From: a virus
Virus record (IMG/VR): IMGVR_UViG_3300042288_002007
Location: 1 to 60,060 of that record
Reading direction: 5' to 3' (one strand)
Length of the DNA stretch: 60,060 bases
Shown here in pieces: positions 16,197 through 40,764 of the stretch; positions within the stretch are counted from its first letter, which is position 1, and every line of letters begins with the position of its first letter. Position numbers and translations under genes: made by a program. Below the pieces are notes generated by a model. The model was given only the letters and a program-made list of their open reading frames with translations. It did no database searches and was not told the origin of the DNA.

Positions 16197-16353
16197 TATT
16201 AAAGACGGTTTTTTATTAGATGATTCTCACTTAGAGGGTAATGTTTTTGAGGGATTGATAACAAATGAAACTGCTGCCTCTGGCAAGGTTAAAGGGAAGA
16301 ATCGAGGCAAGGGCGGACTTCCAAAATCAAATCCTAAAGTGCAAGAAAGCTAA
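16189..16353 (+). CDS. Possible small basic protein (54 aa)
   Basis: The ATG overlaps the last codons of the upstream gene. The product begins MSDIKDGFLLDDSHLEGNVF and ends in a basic Gly/Lys-rich stretch (GKNRGKGGLPKSNPKV). It overlaps the next gene by 89 bp in another frame, so one of the two starts may be wrong. Reported because it sits in the coupled train; evidence is weak. Confidence 0.3.
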   Translation: MSDIKDGFLLDDSHLEGNVFEGLITNETAASGKVKGKNRGKGGLPKSNPKVQES

Positions 16354-16957
16354 TTATCAATGTGGTGATGCTTGTATTCCTAGAACCAAGAAATGTCGTC
16401 TTAGCGAGAAACAATTAGAAAAAATTGTTCAACGTCATGAAGATCAGATCAAGGATTTACCAACGGAAAGAGTATTAATCATTGATGATAAAGGTAGGGT
16501 AATTTTATCCAAGGGAGGCGATCGCACTTCAGTTGAATTTAGCTGGGAAGAAGAAAGAAAAGCTAAAGGAGCTATCGTTACTCATAATCATCCAAATTTA
16601 GGTTTTAGTAGAGATGATGCCAGAAGCAAAGGATTTAGTTTTTCTGATGCTGACTTAGAGTTTGCCGTATGGAGTGAAGTTAAAGAATTACGTGCAGTGA
16701 GTAGTGGCTACAGGCACTCTCTTAAACCCCCTAAAGATGGATGGGATAAAAACCTTTACTGGGATCAAATATGGTACAAAGTATCCGAATCTCAGAAGAA
16801 GCATAAAAAGGAAGTCTATGACGAGTTTGCAAAGAAAATAATTACTGGGCAAATGAAGATAGATGTAGCTGAACGAGATTATCACCACGAAGTTATTAAA
16901 CGGACTGCTAAAGATACAGGAATGATTTACAAACGAGAGGAAATTAAAAATGGTTGA
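16265..16957 (+). CDS. Cysteine-cassette protein with JAB/HNHP-like domain
   Basis: A 230-residue protein. Residues 26-44 carry the cassette CKKANYQCGDACIPRTKKC, the first of eight copies in this region. Residues ~65-160 have a beta strand (VLIIDDKGRVILSKGG), then THNHPNLGFSRDD and FSFSDADLEFA, then LRAVSSGYRHSL. HxHP followed by SxxD is the JAB/MPN metallopeptidase pattern, but the spacing is longer than in RadC. Similar HNHP..SFS..D domains occur at the C-terminus of phage minor head proteins. Role may be processing or an effector activity. It overlaps the next gene by 8 bp. Confidence 0.55.
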   Translation: MKLLPLARLKGRIEARADFQNQILKCKKANYQCGDACIPRTKKCRLSEKQLEKIVQRHEDQIKDLPTERVLIIDDKGRVILSKGGDRTSVEFSWEEERKAKGAIVTHNHPNLGFSRDDARSKGFSFSDADLEFAVWSEVKELRAVSSGYRHSLKPPKDGWDKNLYWDQIWYKVSESQKKHKKEVYDEFAKKIITGQMKIDVAERDYHHEVIKRTAKDTGMIYKREEIKNG

Positions 16958-18104
16958 ATTATTAGAAGATTACCAACAAGTTCTTAATGAAATCGGCGAA
17001 GTATTTGTTGATGAATTTGACGCTCCTGTTTCTCAAGTTTTAACCGCGAATATCAACGAGAATGGCGTAGTTTATGGCGATTTAATCAGTGGTGGCAACT
17101 ACTATCATTACGCTTCTGATGGTGAAGAAATTGGATTAAATTTCTTGCCAGATGAAACCAGAGAAATCAACGAATACGCTCAAGGGTTTTTCTCTGCTAG
17201 ATACGGCATAAATCTAGATAGTGCAGTCAGCCCCTATGAGTATGTAATGGGATTTTACCGCCAAGATGCACGAGTTAAGTGTAAAAAAGGTGGTGTTGCT
17301 TGCGGAAAAGTTTGTTTACCTAAAGGTGCTGTTTGTCGCAAATTTGGCTCTGGTGGTAATGCCAACACAATGAAAGGTGCAGCAGGTAAATTAAGAAGTC
17401 CGGGAATGGCTGGAGCCGCGATCGCTGGTGGTGCAGCTTTAGCAGGTGCAGCAGCATTAGGTGGTGCTGGTTATATGGCATCACAAGATCCTAGTATTCG
17501 TCGAGGTGCGAATGTAGCAGCCGAGAGAGTTAAACGTGGTGCAGCTAAAGCGGGGGAAGAAGTCAGTAAAGGCGTTGATGAAGCGAAAGAGTCTATCAAG
17601 GCAACTGCACAGAGAGTAGAACAGCAAGTTAAAAAAGGTAGTTATGGCAAAGCCGCAGCTAGTGTGGCTGGTGGAGCAAGGGAAGTATCTAAAATAGCAG
17701 GGGAAACACAACAAAATGCAGCTAACGCATCCGGTAAAGACTTTCAACGTGCAGGACAAGCAGTAGAGCGTGGTGTCAAGGGTTCTGCTGTCGGAAAACA
17801 AGCAAAAGCTACTGCTGAAACAGTGCAAAAAACAGCCGCACAAGTACAAGCGAATGTCGAAAAAGCTCAAGGGGAAGTCGCTAAGGGGGCTAGGAAGGCA
17901 AGTCGAGTAGCCAAAGTCATTGGTGGCAGGATTCAAAAGGGTGGGGCTAAAGCAGAAGAGATTTATAACAAGGGCGAGGAAATGGCTGGAAATATCAGAA
18001 AAACAGCAGGTGATCTTGCAACTAAAGCAGCCAAGGGGGAAGTTGAAAAAGCTGCAAAATTTATTGAAAAACAAACTACTCCAAAATCTCAAAAAAAAAA
18101 GTAA
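16950..18104 (+). CDS. Cysteine-cassette protein with long Ala/Lys amphipathic helices
   Basis: A 384-residue protein. The N-terminal ~105 residues form a folded domain. The cassette CKKGGVACGKVCLPKGAVC starts at residue 111. A Gly/Ala-rich hydrophobic helix (AAIAGGAALAGAAALGGAGY, ~150-172) could span a membrane. The remaining ~200 residues are Ala/Lys/Gln/Glu repeats resembling apolipoprotein or LEA-type amphipathic helices. A good site (GAGGAAATTAAAA) precedes the ATG. The gene ends CAA AAA AAA AAG TAA, where a -1 shift would extend the protein by 134 residues into the next ORF. Role unknown; membrane or DNA association is possible. Confidence 0.6.
   Translation: MVELLEDYQQVLNEIGEVFVDEFDAPVSQVLTANINENGVVYGDLISGGNYYHYASDGEEIGLNFLPDETREINEYAQGFFSARYGINLDSAVSPYEYVMGFYRQDARVKCKKGGVACGKVCLPKGAVCRKFGSGGNANTMKGAAGKLRSPGMAGAAIAGGAALAGAAALGGAGYMASQDPSIRRGANVAAERVKRGAAKAGEEVSKGVDEAKESIKATAQRVEQQVKKGSYGKAAASVAGGAREVSKIAGETQQNAANASGKDFQRAGQAVERGVKGSAVGKQAKATAETVQKTAAQVQANVEKAQGEVAKGARKASRVAKVIGGRIQKGGAKAEEIYNKGEEMAGNIRKTAGDLATKAAKGEVEKAAKFIEKQTTPKSQKKK
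18095..18101 (+). promoter_or_regulatory. -1 frameshift slippery heptamer A AAA AAG
   Basis: In the frame of the 16950 gene the last sense codons read A_AAA_AAG immediately before TAA. This is the classic efficient bacterial -1 heptamer known from dnaX. It is part of a run of ten A (18091-18100), which also favours polymerase slippage. After a -1 shift the frame stays open through 18101-18160 and runs into the ORF at 18161, giving a product of about 518 residues. I saw no strong downstream stem-loop. Confidence 0.55.
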
Positions 18105-18160: not shown

Positions 18161-18505
18161 ATGAGCAACAGTAATTCCAAGAAAAAAGAAAGCGATTTTA
18201 GCGGATTAAGTGCCTCTAAAGCAGAGTCGCCAGTAGAAGCACAACTCATTACTGGAGGCTACAAAATGAAAGGTCGTCCTCCCAGAATCAAAAGAGCGCG
18301 TAATCCTAAAGTTCAAGGACAATCAGCGTTTACTAGTACCAGGGTGAAAGATAAGAAAAATAAACCCTACGAACCACCAGCGGACTATCCTGATGCTACT
18401 CCTGGTGCTTGGGTTGAACCTTTCGCTACGGCTGCTGTAGTAACAAATCAAGCTGCTGTGAAAGCTAAAAAATCAAAAGGCAAGGGATTTGCCAAGGATG
18501 GATGA
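18161..18505 (+). CDS. Basic low-complexity protein, likely -1 extension of the upstream gene
   Basis: As an independent ORF it would start at ATG 18161 (114 residues), but there is no ribosome binding site (CTAGCACGAAA precedes it). The frame is open upstream to the poly-A run at 18091. The product is Lys/Ser/Pro-rich with a patch GRPPRIKRARNPKVQG and a C-terminal KAKKSKGKGFAKDG. I favour reading it as the C-terminal extension made by -1 frameshifting. It overlaps the next gene by ATGA. Confidence 0.5.
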   Translation: MSNSNSKKKESDFSGLSASKAESPVEAQLITGGYKMKGRPPRIKRARNPKVQGQSAFTSTRVKDKKNKPYEPPADYPDATPGAWVEPFATAAVVTNQAAVKAKKSKGKGFAKDG

Positions 18506-20862
18506 TCATGGGACACAGCACTTACAAAATTAGCGTAGATTCAAAGGGGAAGGCGATATGTAAGATCGGAAAACAATGTGGCGATATTTGCATACCTAAA
18601 CGCAAAAAGTGCAAAGATACTCGCGGTGAAGCCGCAGCTTTAGTTAAGGAATTGCAAGGGGTTAGGAAAGAATTATCTGAATTGCGTAATGAACTACGCA
18701 GCATGAGATCAGGAAATAATACACCTCAAAAGCCCAGTCAAGAACTTCAAAAATCGCTAGACAAAACATCTAAGGCTATTGCTAATTCCGTAGATATTTC
18801 CAAAGTTGCTGCTGTTGGCGCGATCGCGGGAATGTCTTTAATTGCTTTGCCACCTGCCGGATATTTAGCTTTTAGGGCAAATTATCATAATAATTTTAAT
18901 AAATCTGCTGAAGAAGCAAAAAACATAGCCAACGAAATCAAAGATGATATTCCTAACGATTTAAAAGGTGGGTATAAAGGGACTAATGGTGATACTCCTG
19001 CTAATCAAATCACTTTTGTTGTAGGTGGATTTGCAGGGCAAGGCGGGGAAAATTCATTGCAATATGCACAGCAATTTGCCCCAAATAGAGGAAGTGGCGC
19101 ACAAAATACCCTAAAACAATCCGCCGAAGACGCTAGTGATTCCCCTGATTTATTTGAGGATCATCACGTAGTCGCAATCAACAATAGAGACTTTGAGATT
19201 CGTCCGTCAGGTAAACGAGAAACAGTATCTATACCTATTCCATTTACAGACCAAACAATCACAGATGGAACTACAGAACAGTTCAAAACAATGTTGGAAA
19301 CTTCTGTAGTCAAAGGTAGTAATCCTGTTAGTATAGAGCTTGCTGCAAAAGCCTATGCTTATAGACAGAAACACCCAGATAAACCGATTAATTTAATGGG
19401 ATATTCTGCTGGAGGAATGGTAACTCATGAAGCAGCACATATTCTTGAGAAAATGGGTGTCAAGGATGTGCGAGTGGCTAACTTTGGTTCTCCCTATTGG
19501 GGATTAACTGACAAAGTTGGTCAGTCGGTTACATTCGCATCCGAGAATGACCCTGTTGTTAGCCAAGGGGGCGTAGCAATCAGAGATCCTATTCTTGTTA
19601 ATAAAGTGGCTAATCACTTTGCATATCTCCAGAATCCAGATACTAGAAGGCATTTAGCAAATTTCTTTGATAGAAGCAAATCGAATGTTAAACCTAATCA
19701 AGATGTGTGGGTTCCCGGTGTTACTCCTACACCAAAAGAGCAAAGCAGTAATCTAACTCCTGGAAGTAAGCCTAAACCCAAGGAAGGGGAAACAGAAGCC
19801 GAATATAACGCAAGAGTAGCAAGAGAGAAAAAGCGTCAACGAAGGGAAGATCCTGCGGTTCAAGCTGAATTGCAAAGAAAAATGCAGGAAAGAGCTTCTA
19901 GGCAAGCAGCAAGTAAAAACGATAGTTTCACTTATCATCTATCTAGGCTTGATGCTATTAAAAAAGCTACTTGCAAAGTCGGGAAACAGTGCGGCGATGT
20001 TTGTATTCCTAAGAAGAAGAAATGCACTGGCGATCGCCTTAAACAAAAAAAGCCGTCATTGGATTTTAGTCCATTAATTACTGCTGGAATTACTGTTGCG
20101 GGTATTGCTGCTGTAACCGGGCTGACTGTTGCCGGATTAAAAATGAAGCATGATAGTGGAATTAATTTAGCAGCTAAGTCTATTAAAGATAATCCAGAGT
20201 TTGTTGATAGCGTTGAAGTTAGTCCAGTTAAAATAAATAATTCCAATCCTATTATTTATACAGCATCAGGATTAGGCGTAGCTGATTCTGAAGTAAGTAA
20301 ATTTTATAATGATGAATTTGGTGATGATTCCTATGGCAGAGAAGTGTCCAATGCTTTAGGGAAAGAGGGATATAATTATATTTCTCTACCATTAAAATTC
20401 AACCAAGTTAAAGAGAATACTGGATTTGATGAAGCGGTTAAGAAATATGTTACTCCTTTACTAGAAAAAGGGTATAACCCCGACGCTTATGAATTAGCCA
20501 AGCACGTATATTATCAACATCAATTAAATCCCAACAATCAAATATATTTAAGTGGTCATAGCGCAGGTAGTGTTGTTACCAATCATGCCCAAGAAATATT
20601 AGATAAACTGGGCGTTCAATCAACCGTCATCAACTCGCATGGATATTATTCTGGTATAGAAAATCTCAAGCCACAAAATAATGTCACTATACTAGGAAGA
20701 TCGGATGCGGTTGTTAAACCTTTCTATTCTCATAATCCCACAATGATTGATGGTGAACATAATGCTATGTATGAAGACCCTGATGGAGAAAATGGGTATC
20801 AGTATAGAAACTGGAGGAATGAATTATTAAATCAATTTAATTCAAAAAGGAAAACGCGATGA
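18502..20862 (+). CDS. Double alpha/beta-hydrolase-like protein with cysteine cassettes
   Basis: A 786-residue protein made of two similar units. Unit 1: cassette at residues 20-37 (CKIGKQCGDICIPKRKKC), coiled coil, hydrophobic helix (AAVGAIAGMSLIALPPAGYL), AFRANYHNNF motif, then a hydrolase-like domain with nucleophile elbow GYSAGG (Ser302), candidate acid in SENDPV and candidate His in ANHFAYL. A charged linker follows. Unit 2: cassette from Cys491, hydrophobic helix (ITAGITVAGIAAVTGLTVAG), and GHSAGS (Ser687) with HNAMYED near the end. The fold resembles lipases or esterases; substrate unknown. It is coupled to both neighbours by ATGA overlaps and probably membrane-linked. Confidence 0.65.
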   Translation: MIMGHSTYKISVDSKGKAICKIGKQCGDICIPKRKKCKDTRGEAAALVKELQGVRKELSELRNELRSMRSGNNTPQKPSQELQKSLDKTSKAIANSVDISKVAAVGAIAGMSLIALPPAGYLAFRANYHNNFNKSAEEAKNIANEIKDDIPNDLKGGYKGTNGDTPANQITFVVGGFAGQGGENSLQYAQQFAPNRGSGAQNTLKQSAEDASDSPDLFEDHHVVAINNRDFEIRPSGKRETVSIPIPFTDQTITDGTTEQFKTMLETSVVKGSNPVSIELAAKAYAYRQKHPDKPINLMGYSAGGMVTHEAAHILEKMGVKDVRVANFGSPYWGLTDKVGQSVTFASENDPVVSQGGVAIRDPILVNKVANHFAYLQNPDTRRHLANFFDRSKSNVKPNQDVWVPGVTPTPKEQSSNLTPGSKPKPKEGETEAEYNARVAREKKRQRREDPAVQAELQRKMQERASRQAASKNDSFTYHLSRLDAIKKATCKVGKQCGDVCIPKKKKCTGDRLKQKKPSLDFSPLITAGITVAGIAAVTGLTVAGLKMKHDSGINLAAKSIKDNPEFVDSVEVSPVKINNSNPIIYTASGLGVADSEVSKFYNDEFGDDSYGREVSNALGKEGYNYISLPLKFNQVKENTGFDEAVKKYVTPLLEKGYNPDAYELAKHVYYQHQLNPNNQIYLSGHSAGSVVTNHAQEILDKLGVQSTVINSHGYYSGIENLKPQNNVTILGRSDAVVKPFYSHNPTMIDGEHNAMYEDPDGENGYQYRNWRNELLNQFNSKRKTR

Positions 20863-23800
20863 ACAAATATAGAACAGAACTATTAGAAAGACTTGATAAA
20901 AAAGCTAATTGCAAAGTTGGTAAACAATGTGGCGACATTTGTATTCCCAAGAAAAGCGAGTGTCAGCTAAATGCGCCTGACATTCCAAAAGTATCACCTG
21001 AATTGGTAAAAGGTGTTGGTGCTGGTGCTGGGATACTGGGAATGTCAACTGCAAGCTATTTGGCTTTTAGGGCTAAATATCGGGCTGGTTTTGCAGAATC
21101 AGCGCAAATGGCTGAGGAAATGGCTAATGATGTCAAAGTTGATGATATCCCGCCTGAACAGACAAAAATTACTTTTGCTACAGGTGGTTTTTATGGATCG
21201 ATGGGAGCAGAAGGCAAGAAAAAAGCTGAGGATTATTTTAGCTATAAGCTCAAAACCAATGTTCTCGACGCAGATCATCATGTAATCACTCACCGAAATG
21301 ATGAGTTTAATATCCCTGAAAGCAAGCCTTTAATCAAGGCGATGGAGTTAGATAAAGAAGGTAAAAAGCCCGACCCATTGTTATTTACTCAAGTAGCAAA
21401 AGACGCTATTGTTGATCATTATAAGCAAACGCTAGAAACGGCATTAATCAGAGGTAGAAATCCAGAAGCAGTAAAACTTGCATCAGAAGTAATTGCTTAC
21501 AATCGCGCATATCCAGATAAAGAAATATATTTAACCGGACATTCAGCAGGGGGAATGATAAATCATGAGGCTGCTGAAATTTTAGATAAATTAAAAATTA
21601 AAGTTAATGTTGTTAATTTTGGTTCTGGCTATTTTGGATTAACTGAAAAGGTTGGTAATTCCGCAACTATTGTTAATAGAAGTGACTTTTATTTCAAGAC
21701 GATGGCTGGGGTTCGAGATCCTATTTACATTGGTGAAACCGATAAAATAGCAGACGATGGCGGTCATGCTGTGAAAATATATATGAACTCACCTGAGATA
21801 GTAAAAACAGCCAAGTCACTCTTTAATCAAAAACAAAATACTAAAAAAGATAGCATTGATAACAAAGGGCGCAAATGTGGCGATTCCCACATATCCAAAA
21901 AGTTTAAATGCAAGAAAAATGGAGAAATTCAGGAAGTTTCTGATAACACTAAATTAGCTGCTGTAGCACTAGCTGGAGCAGGGGTAGCCGCACTACCAGT
22001 CGGCGCGATCGCAATAATGCGAAGTAATTATATTGCTAATTTGCCCAAATCCGCCGAAGATGTAAAACGCCAAGGAAAAGCAATAGATCCTGGCACGTTA
22101 AAAGATTTTGGAGACAAGCAGGATATTCTTTTTTACCAAAAAGGATTTAATTCACGTGGTGATTCAACTAAATTAGAATCACACTTAAATTCACTGTTTG
22201 AGAATAGTGGTACTGTAGTCAGAGATAATAAAGATTTTAATTTTCCCAATATTCCCATTGACTCACCTGATTTTAAAGGAAGATTCATTCAATCTGCCGT
22301 TACTACAACAATTAAACCTATTTTGCATGATGGTAGAAATCCAGAATCAGTTGCATTAGCCTCTGAGGTTTATGCTTACCATTTAAAATATCCAGATAAA
22401 CCAATTAATATTATTGGACATTCAGCAGGTGGCATGATTGTCCGCGAAGCATCGGATATTCTTAATAAATTAGAAATAAAACATAATGTTGCAGCGATCG
22501 CTAGTCCTGACTTTGGACTATTCAATACTAAAAATTATATGGCTATCAACTCTGACAAAGATCCTCTGAGTTCAATTCTGCCAAACGCCAAAGCAATGAA
22601 AGTGAGTGTAGAGGGTCACACTGGGGACGATTATCTGAGTGATGCAAAAACTGTTGATTTGCTGAGAAATCATTTTAAAAATAATATGAAAACTGATGCT
22701 TATTATTTAGCCCGTGCTGATGCGATGAAAAAGGCTAAGTGCAAAGTTGGTAAACCATGCGGTGATATTTGTATTCCCAAAAAGAATGAATGTAAAAACG
22801 AGTCCATAGAAGAATCTATTGCTAGACAGCAAAAAGAATACAGGGAATATCAGAAAAAACTTACCGAGCAAGGTAGAAAAAATACCGGAACACCACAAGA
22901 CATATTCAGCGCGATAGGAATTGCTGTAGGAGGTGCGTTATTTAACGGAGGGATTATACTTGCTACCGCTAACATTGCCGGCGCAGCAGATAGAGAAGCC
23001 TACCAAACTAAAACGATTGATCAAGAAGTTAGCAGATTTAACGAGAATAAAGACGATGACATATCGAAATTAATAGACATAAAAGAATATATCGAAAAAG
23101 AGAAGCAGATTATTGGCAACGAAAAAAGAAAGGATCTTGAATCAACTCTCAATGAATACAGCCAAGCACTTTTAGCTGTTGAACAAGAAAGAGACAGATA
23201 TGAAAGACAACTTGAGGAGTATAAGCGAAAATACTCTTCACGAAACTTTAAGCCAAAAGACCGTCCTTTTCAAGATCAGGATTTCCAGAATCTTCAAGGA
23301 ACTGCGGCTGGGTTGAATATGGTGCAATCAAGGCTTGGTAGTATTAAAGAGTCTTACGAGGAACTAACAAATAGACCATTAATGTACAGTCCATTGCGAA
23401 CAAACTCAGGGAAAGACGCATGGAGTGTCCTGGGGCTAGACAAAAATGCCTCCGAAAGTGAAGTTAACTCTGCCTACAAAAAATTAGCAAAACAGTATCA
23501 TCCAGACTTGCATACACGCAAAAGTGCTGATGTTCAACAAAAGCAAGCAGAGAAAATGCAAGAAATAGGTCAGGCTGCAAAAATAGCGCGAAGAATATTA
23601 ACTAATCGAAAAGTATACAAAAGAAGAAGCTCGGCTTATTTATTGCCACCTACTAAACCTTCTTCGGCTAAGACCGACTCTTCACTTACTACACAAGAAC
23701 GGATACAGCTTCAATGCAAAATTTTATTAGCTAGAGCAACTAAAGAATCAATTACTAAAATCAGCAACGTCAAAACTACTAGCAACGGCTCATTAAGTGG

Positions 23801-25490
23801 ATTATTTTCTATCAAGAATAAAACATTTAAGTTTGATATTAATGATAAAAATATCACCTATTCTGCTGTTACTGCCAGGATAGATAGTTTTCAGCGATTC
23901 ATGCGATTTGATGCTAAAAAGAAAAAGTGCAAAATTGGTATCGCTTGCGGTGAAACTTGTATTGGCTCTCGGAAAAAGTGTGAATTATCTACATCAGCGA
24001 TCGCTAAACCTTCAGAATTACGCCAACTAAAGACAACCGCATCAAAATTATTTGTTGAACAAAATCCCATCAATCCTGTTAAACAAGAAAAACCATCAAA
24101 TGATTACGGGATAAACCCTGACACAAAACAACCTTATACAATCAGAGAACTCAAAAAAATAGCTAGTAGTCGCGGTATATATGGCTATGGTTCTATGACA
24201 ATGCAGGAGTTAAAAGAATCGCTAACACTCAACGATAAAGATCCTGATTCCGGTAGAAGGATAGCCGAAGGTATTATTAGAAAAAGAACTTCTGCCAGTA
24301 GATTAATTGACGCTGTTGGATTGAAAGGAAAAAATAAAGGGGCTGAGGGTAATACCAAAAAGGCAATTAGTGAACTGCTTGATAACTGGAAAAGAATTGA
24401 GGCGTTATCTAAGTTCGCTGGGAATAATACCCTTCAATGGAGTGCTGCGGCTGTTGGTGCATTCTTGATTGGTACTACAGTCAGAACTTACGAAAAACTC
24501 AAAGAAGATTATCGTGATGGGTTTGATGAATCCGCCAAAATAGCACAAGAAAGAGCCGCTAAAATCAATCTCCAGCATCCAGAAGAAAGTAATGGTAAAC
24601 CTGTAATCAGAAATGGTAAACAGGTGATGACATCGAAAATAAAGCAGGATAACATCACCTTCGCTGTCGGTTCTGGCAAGGGACATGGGGCTGAGGAAAT
24701 TAAATCTTTATTGCTTGATGGAGAAAAGGGAGACAAATCAGATGAGTGGCTAAAAAAAAGTCATTACATCATCCCTTTTAACCTGCAAGAAACCGGTTCA
24801 CCAAAGCTATCTGCTACAGGTAATCCAGCCGTTGACGCTGCAAATGATGTTGTCAATGGGTTTGGCGATTCTATGCGGAATTGGAGGCAAAAAAGAAACC
24901 AAGATTCGGTAGATTTAGCTGCTCAAATTTATGCTCATGCGATCGCGGTTGACCAGTCAGACGGCAAAACTTTAGTTAATGCAAACAAGAAAATCAACTT
25001 ACTAGCACATGGTTATGGTGGTCAGGTAACAAAAGAAGCCTTGGAAATATTAGCCAGAATGGAGATCAAGGGCAGTCCTCCAGGGAAGGAAGTATTAAAA
25101 CAAGTTAACGCTGTTTACCTTGGTACACCTCATTTTGGTTTTGCCGAGAATGTTTCCAGAAGACAACGGACAATAGTTAGCCAACAAGATCCGGTAGCAA
25201 TGTTACCCACTTTTGGGGATGGGGCGAGACAGCAATGGATTAGCTCTGTACCGGGTCATGCTCCTAGCGATTATTTAGAAGATCCAAGGGTACGAGAATC
25301 TGTGAAAGAAGCGTTTGGATACTATCAAGGTAGCCCAGAGGAAATTAGGCGAACTCAGAGAAAGCAAAGAGCAAGATTAAGCTTTAAACCTAAGTCCAGT
25401 AAACCCACCAAACCCCCTGAAAACAAACAAAATAACAGCGATTCTTACGATATTCAGTATCTATCAACTATTCAAGAAATAGTTAGGTAG
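20859..25490 (+). CDS. Giant protein: three hydrolase-like units, J-domain, four cysteine cassettes
   Basis: A 1543-residue protein with AAGGA upstream of its start. Cassettes begin near residues 18, 340 (degenerate, CGDSHISKKFKC with His for Cys), 628 and 1024. Hydrolase-like unit 3 has GHSAGG at Ser229 and unit 4 has GHSAGG at Ser522. Unit 5 has AHGYGG with Gly1385 at the serine position, so it is presumably inactive. Each is preceded by a hydrophobic helix. A J-domain (WSVLGLDKNASESEV, HPD near residue 880) and a SAP-like segment (YTIRELKKIASSRGIYGYG, ~1090) lie between units 4 and 5. It precedes the tape measure gene. I infer a virion-associated membrane-acting protein that may recruit host DnaK. 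Confidence 0.65.
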   Translation: MNKYRTELLERLDKKANCKVGKQCGDICIPKKSECQLNAPDIPKVSPELVKGVGAGAGILGMSTASYLAFRAKYRAGFAESAQMAEEMANDVKVDDIPPEQTKITFATGGFYGSMGAEGKKKAEDYFSYKLKTNVLDADHHVITHRNDEFNIPESKPLIKAMELDKEGKKPDPLLFTQVAKDAIVDHYKQTLETALIRGRNPEAVKLASEVIAYNRAYPDKEIYLTGHSAGGMINHEAAEILDKLKIKVNVVNFGSGYFGLTEKVGNSATIVNRSDFYFKTMAGVRDPIYIGETDKIADDGGHAVKIYMNSPEIVKTAKSLFNQKQNTKKDSIDNKGRKCGDSHISKKFKCKKNGEIQEVSDNTKLAAVALAGAGVAALPVGAIAIMRSNYIANLPKSAEDVKRQGKAIDPGTLKDFGDKQDILFYQKGFNSRGDSTKLESHLNSLFENSGTVVRDNKDFNFPNIPIDSPDFKGRFIQSAVTTTIKPILHDGRNPESVALASEVYAYHLKYPDKPINIIGHSAGGMIVREASDILNKLEIKHNVAAIASPDFGLFNTKNYMAINSDKDPLSSILPNAKAMKVSVEGHTGDDYLSDAKTVDLLRNHFKNNMKTDAYYLARADAMKKAKCKVGKPCGDICIPKKNECKNESIEESIARQQKEYREYQKKLTEQGRKNTGTPQDIFSAIGIAVGGALFNGGIILATANIAGAADREAYQTKTIDQEVSRFNENKDDDISKLIDIKEYIEKEKQIIGNEKRKDLESTLNEYSQALLAVEQERDRYERQLEEYKRKYSSRNFKPKDRPFQDQDFQNLQGTAAGLNMVQSRLGSIKESYEELTNRPLMYSPLRTNSGKDAWSVLGLDKNASESEVNSAYKKLAKQYHPDLHTRKSADVQQKQAEKMQEIGQAAKIARRILTNRKVYKRRSSAYLLPPTKPSSAKTDSSLTTQERIQLQCKILLARATKESITKISNVKTTSNGSLSGLFSIKNKTFKFDINDKNITYSAVTARIDSFQRFMRFDAKKKKCKIGIACGETCIGSRKKCELSTSAIAKPSELRQLKTTASKLFVEQNPINPVKQEKPSNDYGINPDTKQPYTIRELKKIASSRGIYGYGSMTMQELKESLTLNDKDPDSGRRIAEGIIRKRTSASRLIDAVGLKGKNKGAEGNTKKAISELLDNWKRIEALSKFAGNNTLQWSAAAVGAFLIGTTVRTYEKLKEDYRDGFDESAKIAQERAAKINLQHPEESNGKPVIRNGKQVMTSKIKQDNITFAVGSGKGHGAEEIKSLLLDGEKGDKSDEWLKKSHYIIPFNLQETGSPKLSATGNPAVDAANDVVNGFGDSMRNWRQKRNQDSVDLAAQIYAHAIAVDQSDGKTLVNANKKINLLAHGYGGQVTKEALEILARMEIKGSPPGKEVLKQVNAVYLGTPHFGFAENVSRRQRTIVSQQDPVAMLPTFGDGARQQWISSVPGHAPSDYLEDPRVRESVKEAFGYYQGSPEEIRRTQRKQRARLSFKPKSSKPTKPPENKQNNSDSYDIQYLSTIQEIVR

Positions 25491-25537: not shown

Positions 25538-28500
25538 ATGGTAAATACAGCAGGCGATCGCTCATCTAGTTCATTAGAAATTAAGATTCAAGCCAGAGAT
25601 GAAGCCACTGGAACTATCAAAGGGACACAAGTTGCTGTTGCCAATCTCAAAGATGAATCAACATTATTGTCTAGGTCTCTAACCGCAACCAGTACAGCAT
25701 TAACTAATGTTTCTAATACGGCCACTCTTGCGGGTGACAGAGTTAGACAAGTAGGTGCAGGATTCCAACTAGCTGGAGTTGCTGCGGCTGGTGCTTTTGT
25801 TGGGGCAACTTCAGCGATCGGTGATTTATTTGCTGCTACAAATGCCGTTTTCTCTGTCCTCAATAATCCAGTTGCTACTACTCTTTTTTCAACCATTGGT
25901 AACGAAGCAGAATCGGCATTGAGTCAAATTGCTCCATTGAGTGATGTCCTTCGCCAAACTACTATTGTTGCCACAAAGTTTGGCGCATCCTTCGCGCAAA
26001 GTTTAACAGGAATTAATATACAACAGACGGGGCAACAAACAGGAAGCGCATTTCTAACTGGCTTCATAAATGCAGGTTTTGATAGAATCGGACCCGCACT
26101 AAACATTTTCGATAATCAAATTCGAGGTGTATTTGAAGCACTAGGTTCTGTATCAGGGAAGGCATCACAAGCCTTAAATATAATCGGTTTATTCCCTGGA
26201 CAAGTAGCAGGGATTGATGAACAACTAGAGATATTTGGCTATGTAGAACAAGTTTTTAGTGGTATTTCTGAAGGTATTGCCCTAGTCGGGCAAAAGATAT
26301 TTTTCTTCAGTCAAGCGATCGGCTCACTCCAGGGACTTGTTCAAAACGGTCCATTTAAAATATTAATTGGGCAAACAGTTGAGTTAAGAGAGCAGCTTTT
26401 AGCTACACAAGCCTCCTTGGTTGGTACGTCAGCTATTTTCAATAAATTTACTGGGCAAGAAATTAAAGATCCGACAACAGCCATCAAAGCCCTTGATTTA
26501 CCTATCCTTGGACAAATAGAAAAACTGCGAACTGAATCCTTGGAATTAGTTGGGGTGACATCCAAAGATTTAGTCCCACTATACCAACAAGTCGCTAGTC
26601 GTATTACTGGAATTGGAGGAAGTCTAACAGATGCAAAAGACCTTGCGTTAGATTTTGCAGCAAGTTTAGGTACTTTAAATATTCCTCTATTTCAGTCACA
26701 ACAAGAAATAGCTTCTATATTAACTGGACAAATTGATCAAAATAGTGCATTAGCCAAAAGTTTAAATATTACTAATGAACAAGTAAATATATATAAATCA
26801 CAAGGAAGAGTAGTAGAGGAATTAAGAAAACGGTTAGAGGCATTTAGAGCAGGGAATAAATTAGCATCTGAAAGCTTGGGCGGTTACACGAGCAACATTC
26901 AAGAAATCTTTGATGAAATTGGCAGAAAAGCCGGACAACCGCTACTAGATCCGCTACTCAAACAAGTATCTATTTTTTATGAGTTTCTTCGTCAAAATCA
27001 GAAGCAATTAATTGATTATTTTGGGCAATTCTCTGACTATATGCTGAGAATTGGATCTGCCGGCACTCAAATTGTGCAGCAAATCATCAAAGCTTTCCAA
27101 GATATAGCGCCCAAAATACCTGTTCTTTTATTTGAATCGCTAACAAGTATCATGGAGTCGTTAGCGCAAGTAATTGGTGTCGTCACTCAAGCATTAACTC
27201 CAGTTATAAACACTCTCGCTGCAATGATTGAAGTGTCAGGGAGATTGGGTGGTCCACTACTGCAAATATTTTTAACAACTACTGCACTCTCATCTGCTAT
27301 TACTGCATTGAATGGCGTTTTCACAGTAATAGCTAAAACTATTCCTGGGTTGGGAGAATTGATGTACTTAATAGACGTAAGATCGACTGGACTTATCAAT
27401 CAATTCACCAATTTATCCAGTGCTGTTGGAATTGGTGCAAGTGGATTTCTCCTATTAGGTAAAAATCTAGAATCTATTCCCGGAGCAGCAGGAATATTAC
27501 AGCAAGCACTCGGTCCAGTTGGGGGAATACTCGCTGGTTACATCCCAACGATCGCGGGAATTGGGATTCAATTAGCTGGGTTAACAATATTATTCCCTGC
27601 TGTTGGGGCATTTTTCAGTAATTTAGTCACATTAACACCTGGATTATTGAGAACTGCGGCTGCTTTTCTCCAAAATAATAGATTTTTAGCACCACTCGCT
27701 CCTTTATTGGTACAAGCATCTGTAGCTACAGAACTCTATGCAGACGTAAACACAAGAGCAACTGTCATAGGCTCTCAATTTGCCACAGCATTAAAATCAA
27801 TCGGACAAGCTGTAGCAGCGAACGTTGTAAGCTTGGCATTTTTAGCTGGTGGTGTTTATGCTGCATTTGTGATATTTGATAATTTTGTTCTCAAGAATGA
27901 AGCAGTCAAGCAAGTCCTATCTGCTGTAGGAGAGGGACTGTCAACTCTAGGAAAAATAGTTGTAGATGTCTTCAGTAATCCATTCACAGCAGCGATCGCC
28001 GCAGTAGTCGGATTAGGTTTAGCTATTCGCGTGGGGTTGATTCCCCAAATTAAAGAATTATTGGTATTGCAATTTGCAACATGGGCAGGTGGAGCAGCCG
28101 CAGGATTAAATGCTTTGTCTGGAGCAGCTAAAGCATTAGGTCTAACCAATTTGGCTGCAACTTTGCTTAAATCTAGTGTGGGATTAGGAATAATTCAGAC
28201 ATTATTCACATCTGGCTCAGGCGCAGCGATCGCTTTTGCTGCAAGTCAAGGTGTCACAGTCGGGGCTTTAAGCTTTTTACCACCGTCACTAGCAGCGGCC
28301 ACAACAGGACTCTCTGTATTTACCAAAGCATTATATCTAGCGATCGCCCCCATGCTCCCAATTATTGCCACAATCGGATTAGCAGTAGCAGCGATCGCTA
28401 GTATTGGATTAGCAGTACAGCAAGTAAAATTAGCCCAAGGTATTGCAGAGGTTGAAGAATATGGTAGACAACTTGAGAATGCGTCAGATCAATCATTAAA

Positions 28501-31500
28501 GCTTGCCCAAAGTTTAAAACGCGCTGGTGATGCACAAGCTGAAGCCAATAAACGAGGTGTTCAACTCACCAAAGAACAGTACGCGGAAAATGCGAAATTA
28601 TTAAAACAAACCGAACTCCAAGCTGCGCGTCTTGATGATGAAATAAAAAATCGGCAGGAAGCTCTAAAGGCTATTAATGGAGATGAAAACAAAGCCGCAT
28701 TACAAGCCCAAATTGATGACTTAAAAAGGCAGAAAGAACAATTATTAAGATTGTCTGGGGACGCGATTCAAACTCAGCCCAAAGAGATTCTTGATAAAGG
28801 TTCAGTATTTGAGCAACTACGGATAAAAGCTGAAGGCGCAAAAGCTGCAATCGAGAAACCTGCCGACGATACAGCATTAAAGCAGAAGTCCCAAGAATTA
28901 ATAGAAATTACTCAACAACAACTTGAATTAGGTGCAATCACCGCAGAAGAAGCCAGGAAAAATCTCAGTCAAGTTGCTAATAATGCCAAAGTTGAGCAAG
29001 ATATTAGAATTAAAGCCCAGAAAGCGATCGCCGAAACATACAAGAGTACGTCAAAAGTTGATGCACTTAAAGCGGAATCTGAATTAATTAACGCCCAATT
29101 AGCAGCAGGACTATTAGACTTTGCTGACAATGCTAAGGCGATCGCTGACATCCAAAATTCTGCACTCAATGACAGAATGACGAATGAGGAAGCAGCGCAT
29201 AAAGCAACCATGAAACGGTTGCAGGATGAGTATGAGGGCAAGAAACTTTTACTTGAACAAGATTTATTATCTGCTAGACTTGCTGCTAGTAAAAATGCGG
29301 GGACAGAGGAGGGTAAACAACAATTAGCTAAAGCCGAAGAATTTGCTAAACAATTACAACAATTAGAAGCTAAAAAGAACCAAGATATAGGAGAAGAAGG
29401 TAAGCGAAATGCTGAGGCTAATGCGGCACTCACTAAAGAAATTGCAGATAATCAAGCCAAGCAATACCAACTTGCCAAGGACTTAGAAAAGCAAGTGCGA
29501 GATGGTTCAATTAGTGAAGAACAAGCCGCACTGCGTCAATCGTCAGAAGCCAAAAAAGCAGAATTGGCACAGCAATTAAAATCAAGTGAGGATGCTTATA
29601 AAAAACAAAAAGAACTAATCAATCAACAGCTTGAGCAAGATGTATCTACTGCCCAAAAACAGGTAAGAGAGAAAATAGAAGCGGCTGCCAAATTACCAGT
29701 AGGGAGTAAAGAATATCAGACTGCAATTCAAGATGCTGCGATCGCAAATGCAAAAATTCAAAGTTCTGAAGCAGCCAGCAAGCAAGCTCTATTGAAAGCC
29801 GAGAGGGAGTACAACACAGAGACAGCTAAATTATCGTCTCAGTCGTTACAAGCACAAGCTGATAACGAGAAAAAACAACGGGATGCTGCCATTAAATTCC
29901 TTGATACTAAACAAAAAGAGGCTCAAGATGTTCTCCAGAAATCCCAGAATCAGCAGTTAATAAATATTCAGAAATTAGAAACCACAGGATTGTCAATCAA
30001 GGAACAATCAGAGTTTCAAAAGACTAAATTAACTGGTGAACAAATAGCTCTCCAGTTGCAACAAGAACAGGAAAAATTAAAGAAATTAGAATCTCTTGAA
30101 AAGCCCAAAGGTCAACAAGAAAGATTAGCTCTTGATGCACAAATCCGGGGGTCTAGGTTAAAAACTCAAGAGTTAGTCCGACAGGGCTTAGAAAATGAAC
30201 AGAAAGCTTATGACGGGATAATTAACTTAGTTAAAGCCAATATCAAGTTAGAGGGTGAAGCTAAAGAAACTAAGCTAGAAAGACAGCGATTGACATTGGG
30301 TGAAGCCGCGATCGCACAAACGTTGGCTAGACAGAAAGTTACTGATTTAGAGAAGGAATTATCCAAAGAAACTAAAAATATTGCTAGGCGATCGGCACTA
30401 ATTCTAGAGCTAGAAAAAGCTAGAACCGCAGCGAGACGGGCTGCTATTGCTGATGAACTCAATGATTTTGATAACACTACTGCACAATTGCAAGCGGGAC
30501 TTGAGAGTAGATATAACAAGGGTCAAGCTTCTGAGTCGCGGATTAAAGTTATTGAGGCACAGAGAGCCGTTGAACGCGCTCAGAAGGAACTTAATCTTGA
30601 GAAGGATAATGTTGACAAGAAATACAAATTGCAACTGGCACTAGAGAAAGCCAAAACAGCTTTACTTGATGCCCAAATTGCTGAACGTCAGAAATTAATT
30701 GAAACTGAGAACCAGGAATATCTCAATCAAATTGAGGAACAGAATCAAGCGATTAAACGCCAGTCAATGCTGTATGAAGTCATGGCTTCTGCGCTGACTG
30801 AAAGGAATAAAGTCTTAGAGGCAAGCAAGAATCTAGCCGCAGCAGCAGCCGGATTTATGACTAGCGAACTTGATGTTTTATCCAAAATTGAAACCAGTGA
30901 ATATCGTCGTAAACAATTAGCCGAAATTGCAGCAGCTATTAAATTAGAGGCATTGGCGAAACAGCAAGAATTTGAGCGTGAGAGCCTAGAAAATCAAATA
31001 CTGCAAAATAAATATGCTTTGGAGCGCGAGGCAATTCAAAACCGAATTAACCAAGCAACTAAAATAGCTGAGATTGCCAAGCAACAAGCCGAGATTGAAG
31101 TCTTTAAAGCAGATCCTCGCAATGAAAGTCGTTCCGGTAGAGCGCAGTTGAGAGCCATGGAATTAGCCCTAGAAGCTAACCAATATGGATTAGTTCAGTT
31201 GGGGCTGCAAGGGGGATTGATTCAAAAACAACAAGGTGGTCAAGATGAATTAGCTAACTTCCAAAGGCGATCGCTCGAACTCAAGCAAAAGGGTGATGAG
31301 AGACAAGCGCAAGCAGAATTGATTAATGCCTTACCACCGGGAAGAAGGCAACGTGCATCAAGAGCGTTTGAGCAACAAATTATAGAAGAAGCAGGATATG
31401 ACAGTAAGCGTGGCTTCATAAATGCTGGACTAGCAAAATCCAGAGGAATAATTAAAGATAAATTTGGCATTACACCATCCATAGATTTACTTGGTGCTGT

Positions 31501-31930
31501 AGACCCAGAATTAGCAGGATTACTAGAAAATTTATCTCCATCTCAACAAGCAGCCGCCATAGGAAATGTCCAAAGTAATTTCAATAGAGATTTTGGTGGC
31601 ACTCAATCATTGAGTAATGTTTCTTCTCCTAATCCCACTGGTAAGCCACTGCAATTACTTCCAGAATTTCAGGGTAAGTTGACTCTACCCTCACCTACCC
31701 AGCGCGGTTCATCAATTGTGAATTTAGAAAAATCTGGTAATTTATTCCAGACTGGTGTAGAGAAATTAATTGATTATTTAGATGGACAAAAGAAAGATTC
31801 TAAAGGCACTAGCTACAACATCAATATCACGTCACCAGTTGGCAATACTTCTACTTCTGGAACTGCTAATAAAGTATCCACTCTAGAAGATACTCTCAGA
31901 ATTGCTAAACAGTTGGCAGGAATTAAATAA
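25538..31930 (+). CDS. Tail tape measure protein
   Basis: A 2130-residue protein. Residues ~1-970 are rich in hydrophobic Ala/Gly/Val helices (for example LAIAPMLPIIATIGLAVAAI), the membrane-active part common to tape measures. Residues ~970-1900 are continuous Ala/Gln/Glu/Lys coiled coil, followed by a Gly/Pro/Ser-rich C-terminus. If about 0.15 nm of tail per residue applies, the tail would be near 300 nm, consistent with a long siphovirus-type tail; no sheath gene is visible. It starts 47 bp after the hydrolase-like gene. A promoter-like box overlaps the spacer just after its end. Confidence 0.85.
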   Translation: MVNTAGDRSSSSLEIKIQARDEATGTIKGTQVAVANLKDESTLLSRSLTATSTALTNVSNTATLAGDRVRQVGAGFQLAGVAAAGAFVGATSAIGDLFAATNAVFSVLNNPVATTLFSTIGNEAESALSQIAPLSDVLRQTTIVATKFGASFAQSLTGINIQQTGQQTGSAFLTGFINAGFDRIGPALNIFDNQIRGVFEALGSVSGKASQALNIIGLFPGQVAGIDEQLEIFGYVEQVFSGISEGIALVGQKIFFFSQAIGSLQGLVQNGPFKILIGQTVELREQLLATQASLVGTSAIFNKFTGQEIKDPTTAIKALDLPILGQIEKLRTESLELVGVTSKDLVPLYQQVASRITGIGGSLTDAKDLALDFAASLGTLNIPLFQSQQEIASILTGQIDQNSALAKSLNITNEQVNIYKSQGRVVEELRKRLEAFRAGNKLASESLGGYTSNIQEIFDEIGRKAGQPLLDPLLKQVSIFYEFLRQNQKQLIDYFGQFSDYMLRIGSAGTQIVQQIIKAFQDIAPKIPVLLFESLTSIMESLAQVIGVVTQALTPVINTLAAMIEVSGRLGGPLLQIFLTTTALSSAITALNGVFTVIAKTIPGLGELMYLIDVRSTGLINQFTNLSSAVGIGASGFLLLGKNLESIPGAAGILQQALGPVGGILAGYIPTIAGIGIQLAGLTILFPAVGAFFSNLVTLTPGLLRTAAAFLQNNRFLAPLAPLLVQASVATELYADVNTRATVIGSQFATALKSIGQAVAANVVSLAFLAGGVYAAFVIFDNFVLKNEAVKQVLSAVGEGLSTLGKIVVDVFSNPFTAAIAAVVGLGLAIRVGLIPQIKELLVLQFATWAGGAAAGLNALSGAAKALGLTNLAATLLKSSVGLGIIQTLFTSGSGAAIAFAASQGVTVGALSFLPPSLAAATTGLSVFTKALYLAIAPMLPIIATIGLAVAAIASIGLAVQQVKLAQGIAEVEEYGRQLENASDQSLKLAQSLKRAGDAQAEANKRGVQLTKEQYAENAKLLKQTELQAARLDDEIKNRQEALKAINGDENKAALQAQIDDLKRQKEQLLRLSGDAIQTQPKEILDKGSVFEQLRIKAEGAKAAIEKPADDTALKQKSQELIEITQQQLELGAITAEEARKNLSQVANNAKVEQDIRIKAQKAIAETYKSTSKVDALKAESELINAQLAAGLLDFADNAKAIADIQNSALNDRMTNEEAAHKATMKRLQDEYEGKKLLLEQDLLSARLAASKNAGTEEGKQQLAKAEEFAKQLQQLEAKKNQDIGEEGKRNAEANAALTKEIADNQAKQYQLAKDLEKQVRDGSISEEQAALRQSSEAKKAELAQQLKSSEDAYKKQKELINQQLEQDVSTAQKQVREKIEAAAKLPVGSKEYQTAIQDAAIANAKIQSSEAASKQALLKAEREYNTETAKLSSQSLQAQADNEKKQRDAAIKFLDTKQKEAQDVLQKSQNQQLINIQKLETTGLSIKEQSEFQKTKLTGEQIALQLQQEQEKLKKLESLEKPKGQQERLALDAQIRGSRLKTQELVRQGLENEQKAYDGIINLVKANIKLEGEAKETKLERQRLTLGEAAIAQTLARQKVTDLEKELSKETKNIARRSALILELEKARTAARRAAIADELNDFDNTTAQLQAGLESRYNKGQASESRIKVIEAQRAVERAQKELNLEKDNVDKKYKLQLALEKAKTALLDAQIAERQKLIETENQEYLNQIEEQNQAIKRQSMLYEVMASALTERNKVLEASKNLAAAAAGFMTSELDVLSKIETSEYRRKQLAEIAAAIKLEALAKQQEFERESLENQILQNKYALEREAIQNRINQATKIAEIAKQQAEIEVFKADPRNESRSGRAQLRAMELALEANQYGLVQLGLQGGLIQKQQGGQDELANFQRRSLELKQKGDERQAQAELINALPPGRRQRASRAFEQQIIEEAGYDSKRGFINAGLAKSRGIIKDKFGITPSIDLLGAVDPELAGLLENLSPSQQAAAIGNVQSNFNRDFGGTQSLSNVSSPNPTGKPLQLLPEFQGKLTLPSPTQRGSSIVNLEKSGNLFQTGVEKLIDYLDGQKKDSKGTSYNINITSPVGNTSTSGTANKVSTLEDTLRIAKQLAGIK

Positions 31931-31965: not shown

Positions 31966-32613
31966 ATGACATTTAGTATTGATATTCCTCACTTCAAATG
32001 CTTTATAAATAAATCATTTCTTTATAATTGGGATTCACAACAAATTGGATATATACCCGTCAGAGTATTTGGAATAACTTCTATTCCTGGTCGCTCAGTT
32101 GGATTTAATTTGATGACCAATCAGGGAGCGCAATTTGCTAGAGTCCCGATTCATGCTTTGTCGTGGAGAGAGGATTGCGATCGCCTACCATTGGATTGGT
32201 TGCAGTTATGGGATTGCCTAAGTTACGAGCCATGCGCGATCGCCTATTCCTACCTTTCTGAACTACGCTGCAAAACTATTCTCAAGGATGGGAAATGGTA
32301 CGACGGTGAATATATGTTCACAATTGACTGGGTTGGTGGTGACTGGGCGGAAGATCCAAGTGAGCATAAATGTGGTCATGTTTTGAAATTGGATAACGGA
32401 TGCTTCACTATTCAACCTAATAATCGAATTGTATGGCTTGACCCCAGTTTCATAACTGAGCCACTAACCAAAAATCCTGGTTACAAAATTCATACCCACA
32501 GATACAAAAGTGAATCATCCGGGAAGTGGGTGTCAGAAAATAGTGACAACTTTTTCTATGGAACTAACTTAATACTGGATGCAGAGATCAAACCTGCTTG
32601 TGCCACATTATGA
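31966..32613 (+). CDS. Conserved phage protein of unknown function (215 aa)
   Basis: The ATG at 31966 is preferred to a TTG two codons earlier. The pattern YIPVRVFGITSIPGRSVGF, FARVPIHALSW, LQLWDCLSY and CGHVLKLDNGCFTIQPNNRI is of a kind I recall from hypothetical proteins in many phages, including cyanophages, without an assigned function. Trp and Cys are frequent. No membrane segment. It has its own promoter-like box and begins the early/nucleotide block rather than belonging to the tail operon. Confidence 0.7.
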   Translation: MTFSIDIPHFKCFINKSFLYNWDSQQIGYIPVRVFGITSIPGRSVGFNLMTNQGAQFARVPIHALSWREDCDRLPLDWLQLWDCLSYEPCAIAYSYLSELRCKTILKDGKWYDGEYMFTIDWVGGDWAEDPSEHKCGHVLKLDNGCFTIQPNNRIVWLDPSFITEPLTKNPGYKIHTHRYKSESSGKWVSENSDNFFYGTNLILDAEIKPACATL

Positions 32614-32698
32614 GTATGGTGCTTTAACCAATCAGCCAATCCAGTAGACGCGATCGCAAATTCATTGTATCTTAAATAGGATTCAATAGAGCAACAAA

Positions 32699-33307
32699 AT
32701 GATATTAAACGACGAGCAAATAACAAAGTTAGCTCAACAGGGAATGATTCAACCGTTTCAGTCAGAATTAATCAGAGAAGTCACGATTAATGGACATCCT
32801 GACATGAGTTCTCAGTTGCCAGTAATTAGTTATGGATTAAGTTCTTTTGGGTATGATATTCGCCTTAGCCCTAAAGAATTTAAAATCTTTAAACATATTC
32901 CGGGAACTGTAATCAATCCTAAACGGTTTAATCCCAAAAATCTTGAATCAGTTGAATTAAATCGAGATATTGACGGTGAATTTTTTGTGCTTCCAGGTCA
33001 TTCTTATGGTTTAGGTGTAGCATCTGAAAAACTAGAAATTCCCGAAGATGTCACGGTTCTTTGCATGACTAAAAGCACTTATGCTAGAGTTGCGATCGCA
33101 GCTAACTTAACCCCCGCAGAAGCGGGCTGGAAGGGCTTTTTGACTATCGAGATATCTAATAATTGCGGTGCTGATTGTCGAATTTATGCCAATGAAGGAA
33201 TCGCTCAATTATTATTTCTAAAAGGTGAACCTTGCACTGTTTCCTATGAAGATAGACGTGGTAAATATCAAGATCAACCCGAATCAATTGTGTTAGCAAA
33301 GGTTTAA
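32699..33307 (+). CDS. dcd: dCTP deaminase
   Basis: A 202-residue protein of the dCTP deaminase/dUTPase superfamily. Conserved parts are ISYGLSSFGYDIRL, VLPGHSYGLGVASEKLEIP, CMTKSTYARVAI, then GWKGFLTIEISNN with the catalytic Glu, and the C-terminal YEDRRGKYQDQPE. It converts dCTP to dUTP, which feeds thymidylate synthesis by the ThyX coded two genes downstream. It sits 1 bp before the DUF3310 gene. A second copy is at 43021. Confidence 0.9.
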   Translation: MILNDEQITKLAQQGMIQPFQSELIREVTINGHPDMSSQLPVISYGLSSFGYDIRLSPKEFKIFKHIPGTVINPKRFNPKNLESVELNRDIDGEFFVLPGHSYGLGVASEKLEIPEDVTVLCMTKSTYARVAIAANLTPAEAGWKGFLTIEISNNCGADCRIYANEGIAQLLFLKGEPCTVSYEDRRGKYQDQPESIVLAKV

Positions 33308-40038: not shown

Positions 40039-40764
40039 ATGACTAATATATCATTTAATCAAGAATTAGCGATCGCGCTTTATGAGTGTTCCGATGATTT
40101 CCCAGTAAATTTAGACGACGCATGGCAGTGGCTAGGCTATTCCAGTAAGCAAAAAGCAAAAGATAAGCTGGTTCGGAATTTTGAAAAAGAGTTTGATTTC
40201 CGTATTACCCAAATGGTTGAGACTAAGCCAGATGGACGTTTTAGCCATCGCTACGAAAAAATAGAGCTATCTATAGATTGCTTTAAATCACTCGGTATGA
40301 TGGCTGGTACAGCACAGGGAAAAGCAATCAGGAAATATTTTCTTGAGTGTGAACGCATAGCTAAAACAGCAAAACCTCACGCTAAAGTTTTAGGAGCATA
40401 CACAGAGCGTGTCGAGTGCATGATGCTTGACTGCAATAAAATTCCTCACGGTTACTGGTGCGTTCTCCATGAATCAGCTAATTTGCTGGTCTATGTGGAA
40501 ACAGTGCTTAAATTGCCTATCAACAAATCAGACTTGCTAGATGGCAGTATTGGCATTACATGGTCAAATCATCGCAAGGATAAGTCTTGGGCTGGCGATC
40601 GCGTTAAATACTCCTATCGCTTCCCTGATGGTCGTCCTTGTCAGCCTTGGTGTTATCGAATGAGAGAGTTAGAACACTTTAGATATTTTCTGGAGGACAT
40701 TTATAAACCACTTTTGATGCCAAGATATTTAGAGGACAAATACCCTAATCTGGTTCACATTTAG
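40039..40764 (+). CDS. AntA/AntB-type phage antirepressor
   Basis: A 241-residue protein. The N-terminal ~115 residues fit the AntA/AntB domain: [20 protein letters not shown], then FRITQMVE, then [20 protein letters not shown] followed by [11 protein letters not shown]. The C-terminal half ([20 protein letters not shown]) is a separate domain common in cyanobacterial phage antirepressors. It would relieve repression or modify host regulation during induction. It has its own extended -10 box and leader hairpin. Confidence 0.8.

Follow-up and report, generated by a model that had tools for sequence, protein, structure and literature searches.

Within a 60,060-base virus record of IMG/VR (IMGVR_UViG_3300042288_002007; hereafter the window), two adjacent genes, p1 (18502..20862, +; 786 amino acids) and p2 (20859..25490, +; 1543 amino acids), together encode five homologous alpha/beta-hydrolase units and a sixth module that carries a J-domain instead, each module following the order Cys cassette, hydrophobic segment, cargo domain. 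Units 1 and 2 are located in p1, and units 3, 4 and 5 as well as the J-domain module in p2. The two genes are flanked by head and neck genes on one side and by a 2130-amino-acid tape-measure gene on the other. In our view, p1 and p2 are probably (about 0.62) virion-associated proteins of modular build that are delivered to the host together with the DNA or shortly ahead of it, and we read them as cyanophage counterparts of the so-called polyvalent phage proteins, carrying membrane-directed hydrolases. A preliminary description of the window, made from the sequence alone, had reported five tandem units; the five hydrolase units were confirmed, but the array comprises six modules in all, the sixth being the one with the J-domain.

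The best evidence for the predicted delivery by the virion comes from relatives in which the same building blocks are fused to virion proteins. The hydrolase domain was found inside tape-measure proteins in five records (L034, L035, L036, L051 and L052, handles of this form being our own). Three of these are cyanobacterial prophages with matches to tape-measure PHROGs (L034, L035 and L036; hydrolase profile E-values of 1e-37, 1e-20 and 1e-13, respectively), L051 is a viral contig with a tape-measure protein recognized by TMP_3 and PHROGs, and L052 contains a 3625-amino-acid open reading frame (ORF; L052:5912-16786) with two hydrolase domains, the N-terminus of which looks tape-measure-like by eye. 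Two intact genes, in L033 and L043, encode a MuF domain followed by the hydrolase domain. In L045 and L050, the hydrolase genes are split into separate frames and are possibly decayed or misassembled copies of the L043 MuF-type gene. The cassette, in turn, is linked to portal proteins: in one prophage (L071:7786-11583) a Mu-type portal is fused to a pre-domain, a cassette and a further C-terminal part, and in another (L072:7464-12184) a portal carrying an InPase domain is followed by a cassette protein carrying DUF3626. Together, these fusions to tape-measure, MuF and portal proteins support the suggestion of the preliminary description that p1 and p2 have a virion-region role, which probably involves delivery by the virion. 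A further cassette protein (L038:6086-8137) has a C-terminal part matching a portal-family C-terminal extension (phrog_21, 1.6e-20); a ParB reading of this protein, made by eye, received no support from Pfam.

That the hydrolase repeats exceed chance is supported by a profile, by independent Pfam models and by the match between p1 and p2. The unit-derived profile covered all five units at E-values of 1e-101 or better, the units themselves having helped to build it, and additionally gave a partial match in the J-domain module, spanning its cassette and hydrophobic segment; a query made from p1 alone recovered units within p2 at 2.5e-39; and the Pfam models Cutinase, DUF676, Thioesterase and Lipase_3 matched several of the unit positions. 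Units 1 to 4 retain a Ser-Asp-His triad and a GxSxG-type elbow, the serines standing exactly where the preliminary description had located them: Ser302, Asp350 and His372 in unit 1 (18994..19686, this and all following features of p1 and p2 being on the + strand), Ser687, Asp735 and His753 in unit 2 (20224..20856), Ser229, Asp276 and His303 in unit 3 (21156..21836), and Ser522, Asp568 and His587 in unit 4 (22071..22685). Unit 5 (24606..25319), rightly noted as altered, lacks the serine only, with Gly1385 at the nucleophile position of an AHGYGG elbow and Asp1444 and His1467 kept. Pfam matches above the cut-off assign unit 1 (Cutinase, 1.4e-7) and unit 4 (DUF676, 4.1e-8) as putative alpha/beta hydrolases, unit 2 being assigned by homology only. 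Lipase or esterase activity is the most likely prediction for units 1 to 4, and the idea of five active lipase or esterase units was wrong, since unit 5 has no nucleophile; the polyprotein-like nature ascribed to the array is conjectural.

Structure prediction led to the same fold that had been proposed from sequence. The AlphaFold2 model of unit 3, based on an alignment of 17 units, reached a mean predicted local distance difference test (pLDDT) score of 82 and a predicted template modelling (pTM) score of 0.80, and its Foldseek matches in the Protein Data Bank (PDB) were almost all alpha/beta hydrolases, including thioesterases, cutinases, lipases and a type VI secretion system lipase effector, with a target TM-score of 0.65 (Foldseek) against Bacillus lipase A. 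The unit 5 model (pLDDT 73) had cutinases as its best Foldseek matches. For both units, the modelling speaks for an alpha/beta-hydrolase fold of the lipase/cutinase-like type. In the viral library, the CL131 homologues (see below) came first, followed by an unnamed protein and then by one from a phage that bears the name 'Tape measure domain protein'. The units have the fold, the GxSxG motif and the triad order in common with cutinases, minimal lipases and PGAP1/DUF676 esterases, but the sequence identity is 10-20%, and the units differ in being tandem, tagged and phage-borne.

The cassette usually consists of R-x-D, a few residues and C-x5/6-C-G-x2-C-[ILV]-x5-C. Across the window and its relatives, 59 distinct cassettes were gathered, and the four cysteines are invariant in an alignment of 25 sequences. 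Intact copies precede unit 1 (18559..18612; p1 20-37), unit 2 (19972..20025; p1 491-508), unit 3 (20910..20963; p2 18-35), the J-domain (22740..22793; p2 628-645) and unit 5 (23928..23981; p2 1024-1041). Thus the cassette and hydrophobic segment described earlier for each unit were found throughout, except that the cassette of unit 4 (21876..21911; p2 340-351, CGDSHISKKFKC) reads as degenerate in sequence. The FRAxYxxxF-type segment that had also been ascribed to each unit is clear in units 1, 3 and 4 and reads LKEDYRDGF in unit 5, but is degenerate in unit 2 (LKMKHDSGI). In the window and in CL131, the cassette is confined to the genes that separate the neck from the tape measure. Phage records 100-154 kb in length have their cassettes clustered near the virion genes, with one more copy downstream in G003. 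Only five cassette matches were obtained in 386 cyanobacterial genomes. A single genome accounts for the two strongest, both on phage-type contigs, and two of the weaker ones are the portal-linked proteins of L071 and L072. Three viral-contig matches were obtained with an exact DNA pattern of the cassette, but in none of them did the scan find a cassette in an open frame.

The occurrence of the cassette is wider than first described, as two genes upstream of p1 had been omitted. The first (16265..16957, +; 230 amino acids) carries the cassette CKKANYQCGDACIPRTKKC and has cassette-bearing homologues in CL131, L015, L019, L046, L047 and L049; a JAB peptidase reading of this protein, based by eye on H-x-H-P and S-x-x-D, found no support in Pfam. 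The second (16950..18104, +; 384 amino acids), a homologue of CL131 gp045, is composed of an N-terminal pre-domain, a cassette, a Gly/Ala-rich hydrophobic segment and a long helical tail. Its pre-domain also precedes other cassettes.

The hydrophobic segments, rich in Gly and Ala and scored by their 19-residue Kyte-Doolittle maximum, lie at 18796..18852 in unit 1 (p1 99-117; 1.71; predicted to insert into the membrane), 20074..20130 in unit 2 (p1 525-543; 1.94), 21012..21068 in unit 3 (p2 52-70; 1.19, and 1.43 in CL131), 21963..22019 in unit 4 (p2 369-387; 2.15) and 22902..22958 in the J-domain module (p2 682-700; 1.85), with a weak one at 24426..24482 in unit 5 (p2 1190-1208; 0.99). Most other hydrolases, MuF-borne ones included, have such a segment (about 1.0-2.0), in contrast to the tape-measure-borne hydrolases, all six of which are devoid of it (-0.16 to 0.56); the scoring picked the wrong motif in a few rows, among them unit 4 of the window, for which the value of 2.15 comes from a direct scan. 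Because the tape-measure-borne copies do without it, the segment fits a membrane-engaging role that would be needless when the tape measure itself brings the domain to the membrane.

The J-domain module (p2 610-1001) consists of cassette, hydrophobic segment, charged helical linker and J-domain, without a hydrolase. The J-domain (23418..23585; p2 854-909) matches PF00226 at 3.8e-11, above the cut-off, and has the HPD motif in the sequence YHPDLH. Between the J-domain and the cassette of unit 5 lies a pre-cassette domain (23676..23858) modelled with one helix and four strands (pLDDT about 90); judged by eye, a similar domain precedes cassettes in other phages and in portal-linked prophage proteins. 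A weak Rho_N-like motif follows the cassette of unit 5 (24138..24212; p2 1094-1118; PF07498, E-value 0.013, below the cut-off).

The nearest isolate relative is Aphanizomenon phage vB_AphaS-CL131, and its homologues, together with those in viral contigs, support the phage provenance that had been assumed for the array. CL131 gp047 corresponds to unit 2 alone and gp048 to units 3, 4 and 5; both are direct homologues annotated as hypothetical. Unit 1 is absent from CL131, which has two other cassette modules in place of the one with the J-domain, the identity between window and CL131 being 82-94% in the shared units and 30% in the J-domain stretch. With p1 or p2 alone as query, no match was found in the viral and genome collections, and alignment-based queries were needed; these scans added further IMG/VR contigs and a cyanobacterial genome contig with the hydrolase. 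A tblastn search of the phage collection detected the hydrolases in CL131 only, and among cyanobacterial genomes the hydrolase is present in 5 of 386. A hydrolase gene lies directly upstream of a long tape-measure-like ORF in 12 records (the window, CL131, L015, L016, L019, L032, L039, L046, L047, L049, L061 and L062), where the tape-measure call rests on the CL131 annotation, position, length and similar N-termini, some of the ORFs are cut by the locus edge and the gap in L049 is about 650 bases; PHROG support for the downstream ORF was obtained for L046 only.

Local duplication, which the preliminary description had raised as the possible origin of the five units, is rejected by a tree of 52 units. 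The five units of the window are scattered over it, and four have counterparts from other phages as neighbours. Unit 2 groups with units of CL131 and L049, unit 3 with one of CL131, and unit 4 with units of CL131 and L019. Unit 5 belongs to a clade of 14 rows with support 100/97, which also includes members from CL131, L015, L016, L019, L032, L039, L046, L047, L049, L061 and L062. Unit 1 groups loosely with units of L016, L018 and L041. From these scattered positions, the unit types are old, separately inherited and recombined. The units are under purifying selection (ratio of nonsynonymous to synonymous substitution rates, dN/dS, 0.05-0.105), unit 5 having the lowest value (0.050) compared with 0.086-0.105 for the other units and 0.038 for the major capsid protein. 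In the unit 5 clade, the serine is lost in all members except that of L016, with cysteine instead in two. Most of the clade has glycine at this position, and the two cysteine-bearing counterparts (AHCNGG in L046 and L047) have also lost the histidine. Constraint on an enzyme without nucleophile suggests that the dead unit 5 is kept for a structural role.

How delivery might proceed can be outlined as follows. The modules would be built into the particle near neck and tail, perhaps via the cassette, probably a loading or docking tag, and via the dead unit 5, which would probably be a conserved structural core anchoring the array near the tape measure. They would exit the particle together with the tape measure and the DNA, the hydrophobic segments would insert in the host membrane, and the four triad-bearing hydrolases would act at the entry site, most likely on membrane lipids or another acyl ester, while the J-domain might engage host DnaK in drawing the delivered proteins inside or refolding them. 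A bolder formulation, in which the R-x-D and four-Cys cassette is a virion-delivery tag peculiar to this group of cyanophages and routes different cargo domains first to the particle and from there to the host membrane, delivering membrane-anchored lipid hydrolase arrays around a dead core with the J-domain recruiting the host chaperone, is one we put forward tentatively, as possible rather than probable.

Several points weigh against our main reading of p1 and p2. Virion presence and enzymatic activity are both predicted from sequence, and the fusions were found in relatives, not in this phage. For unit 3, a single PDB fold match was below 1e-3, at approximately 10-20% sequence identity, so that the Foldseek result counts as fold-level evidence, and no PDB match of unit 5 was below 1e-3. 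The hydrophobic segments were judged by hydropathy only, and the AlphaFold2 model of unit 3 splits the hydrophobic stretch into two short helices. Finally, the J-domain is also compatible with a role in assembly.

This last point leads to tail-assembly factors that are not delivered at all, i.e. large proteins that chaperone or mature the tape measure while the tail is assembled, with the J-domain recruiting host Hsp70 and the hydrolase folds serving mainly as binding scaffolds. The position of p1 and p2, immediately upstream of the tape-measure gene, is the one where tail-assembly chaperones are usually encoded in siphophages, and the conservation of the unit 5 clade without a nucleophile would suit a scaffold. 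The presence of a J-domain in p2 counts in the same direction, since jumbo phages have DnaJ proteins for which recruitment of host Hsp70 in folding and assembly has been predicted (PMC7824862). Nevertheless, four units have complete triads under purifying selection, the hydrolase domain is built into tape-measure and minor-head proteins, and the J-domain module is dispensable, CL131 lacking it, which makes an assembly role unlikely in our view.

It is distinctly improbable that the units are phage-borne effectors of the polymorphic-toxin type, poisoning membranes of the host or of competitors rather than aiding entry. MuF fusions occur in relatives, MuF polymorphic toxins have been described in temperate phages (PMC5576092) and toxin domains of the alpha/beta-hydrolase type have been described in linkage with phage base-plate modules (PMC3482391); however, the cargo is arranged in tandem along the protein and not as one variable domain at the C-terminus, the nearest relative comes from a phage isolate and not from prophages only, and no immunity gene was identified, though no systematic search was made. 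More improbable still are membrane proteins made in the infected cell, either LysB-like lysis helpers or superinfection-exclusion proteins altering host lipids. The hydrophobic segments and a weak endolysin PHROG match in unit 1 (E-value 0.001) would be in line with this, and mycobacteriophage LysB is itself an alpha/beta-hydrolase esterase. Against it, p1 and p2 lie among virion genes, their neighbours being head and tail genes with no endolysin or holin among the ORFs scanned, and the relatives carry fusions to tape-measure, MuF and portal proteins; the lysis tool proposed in the preliminary description is a weak reading, disfavoured by gene position and fusions alike.

Compared with known systems, a delivered p1 and p2 would, by analogy, work like polyvalent proteins, in which a single polypeptide joins several effector domains of unrelated kinds (Iyer et al. 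2017, PMC5512222), as p2 does with hydrolases and a J-domain. Polyvalent proteins are encoded beside virion genes, have related domains fused to MuF or portal proteins and are predicted to be packaged and injected (PMC5512222); the InPase domain on the L072 prophage portal is one of the domains described there. In contrast, p1 and p2 carry repeated alpha/beta hydrolases and a J-domain behind a common Cys cassette and hydrophobic segments, and none of the polyvalent hub domains (MPTase, ArdC, ART, DdrB-ParB, PBECR) was detected in them by Pfam at E-values up to 1. MuF polymorphic toxins place an effector on a phage minor-head protein (Jamet et al. 2017, PMC5576092), which is exactly the MuF-hydrolase arrangement of L033 and L043, but Pfam found no MuF domain in p1 or p2. 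Without a hub domain and without a MuF domain, p1 and p2 are not filed as members of either class. Tox-ABhydrolase-1 (Zhang et al. 2012, PMC3482391), a lipase-like hydrolase joined to phage tail-type modules as base-plate fusions of bacterial toxin systems, is likened to the units by description. The terms hydrolase, lipase, DnaJ and tape measure were not found in the text of PMC5512222, nor were lipase, hydrolase or cyanobacteria in that of PMC5576092, and our literature search returned no paper pairing a lipase domain with a tape-measure protein or describing a cyanophage virion lipase with DnaJ.

The wider gene setting agrees with a late, virion-related context. Maturation protease, cement protein and major capsid protein were identified in the head region by Pfam and PHROGs, the ORF at 15382 encodes a virion structural protein, and the large terminase is encoded in the same record, p1 and p2 being among the late/virion genes. 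The tape-measure protein (25538..31930, +) has no PHROG match of its own and was named after its homologue CL131 gp049, annotated as tape measure. Further downstream, the ORF at 31960-32613 matches a PHROG named ferredoxin (1e-74), but the counterpart in CL131 carries the annotation phosphoribosylaminoimidazole synthetase (PurM); of the two names, one is likely wrong. A transfer RNA gene, tRNA-Met (32572-32646, minus strand; ARAGORN), overlaps the end of this ORF; in the CL131 record, the tRNA-Met annotated at the equivalent position is on the plus strand. The dCTP deaminase at 32699-33307 (202 amino acids) apparently lacks the self-excising intein reported for that of CL131, and 40039-40764 is a BstA-like or antirepressor-like gene (phrog_6287, 3e-17) with a possible abortive-infection or lysogeny-related function.

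How DNA and proteins pass the envelope is poorly known for siphophages of filamentous cyanobacteria. If delivered, p1 and p2 would represent an unusual phage particle with a battery of membrane-targeted hydrolases, and would fill the reported paucity of polyvalent-type proteins in cyanobacteria (PMC5512222). The cassette would then provide a sequence handle for finding those delivered proteins of cyanophages that currently have a hypothetical annotation. CL131 virions have already been analysed by proteomics, with 23 proteins listed (PMC6293099), and this isolate makes delivery directly testable.

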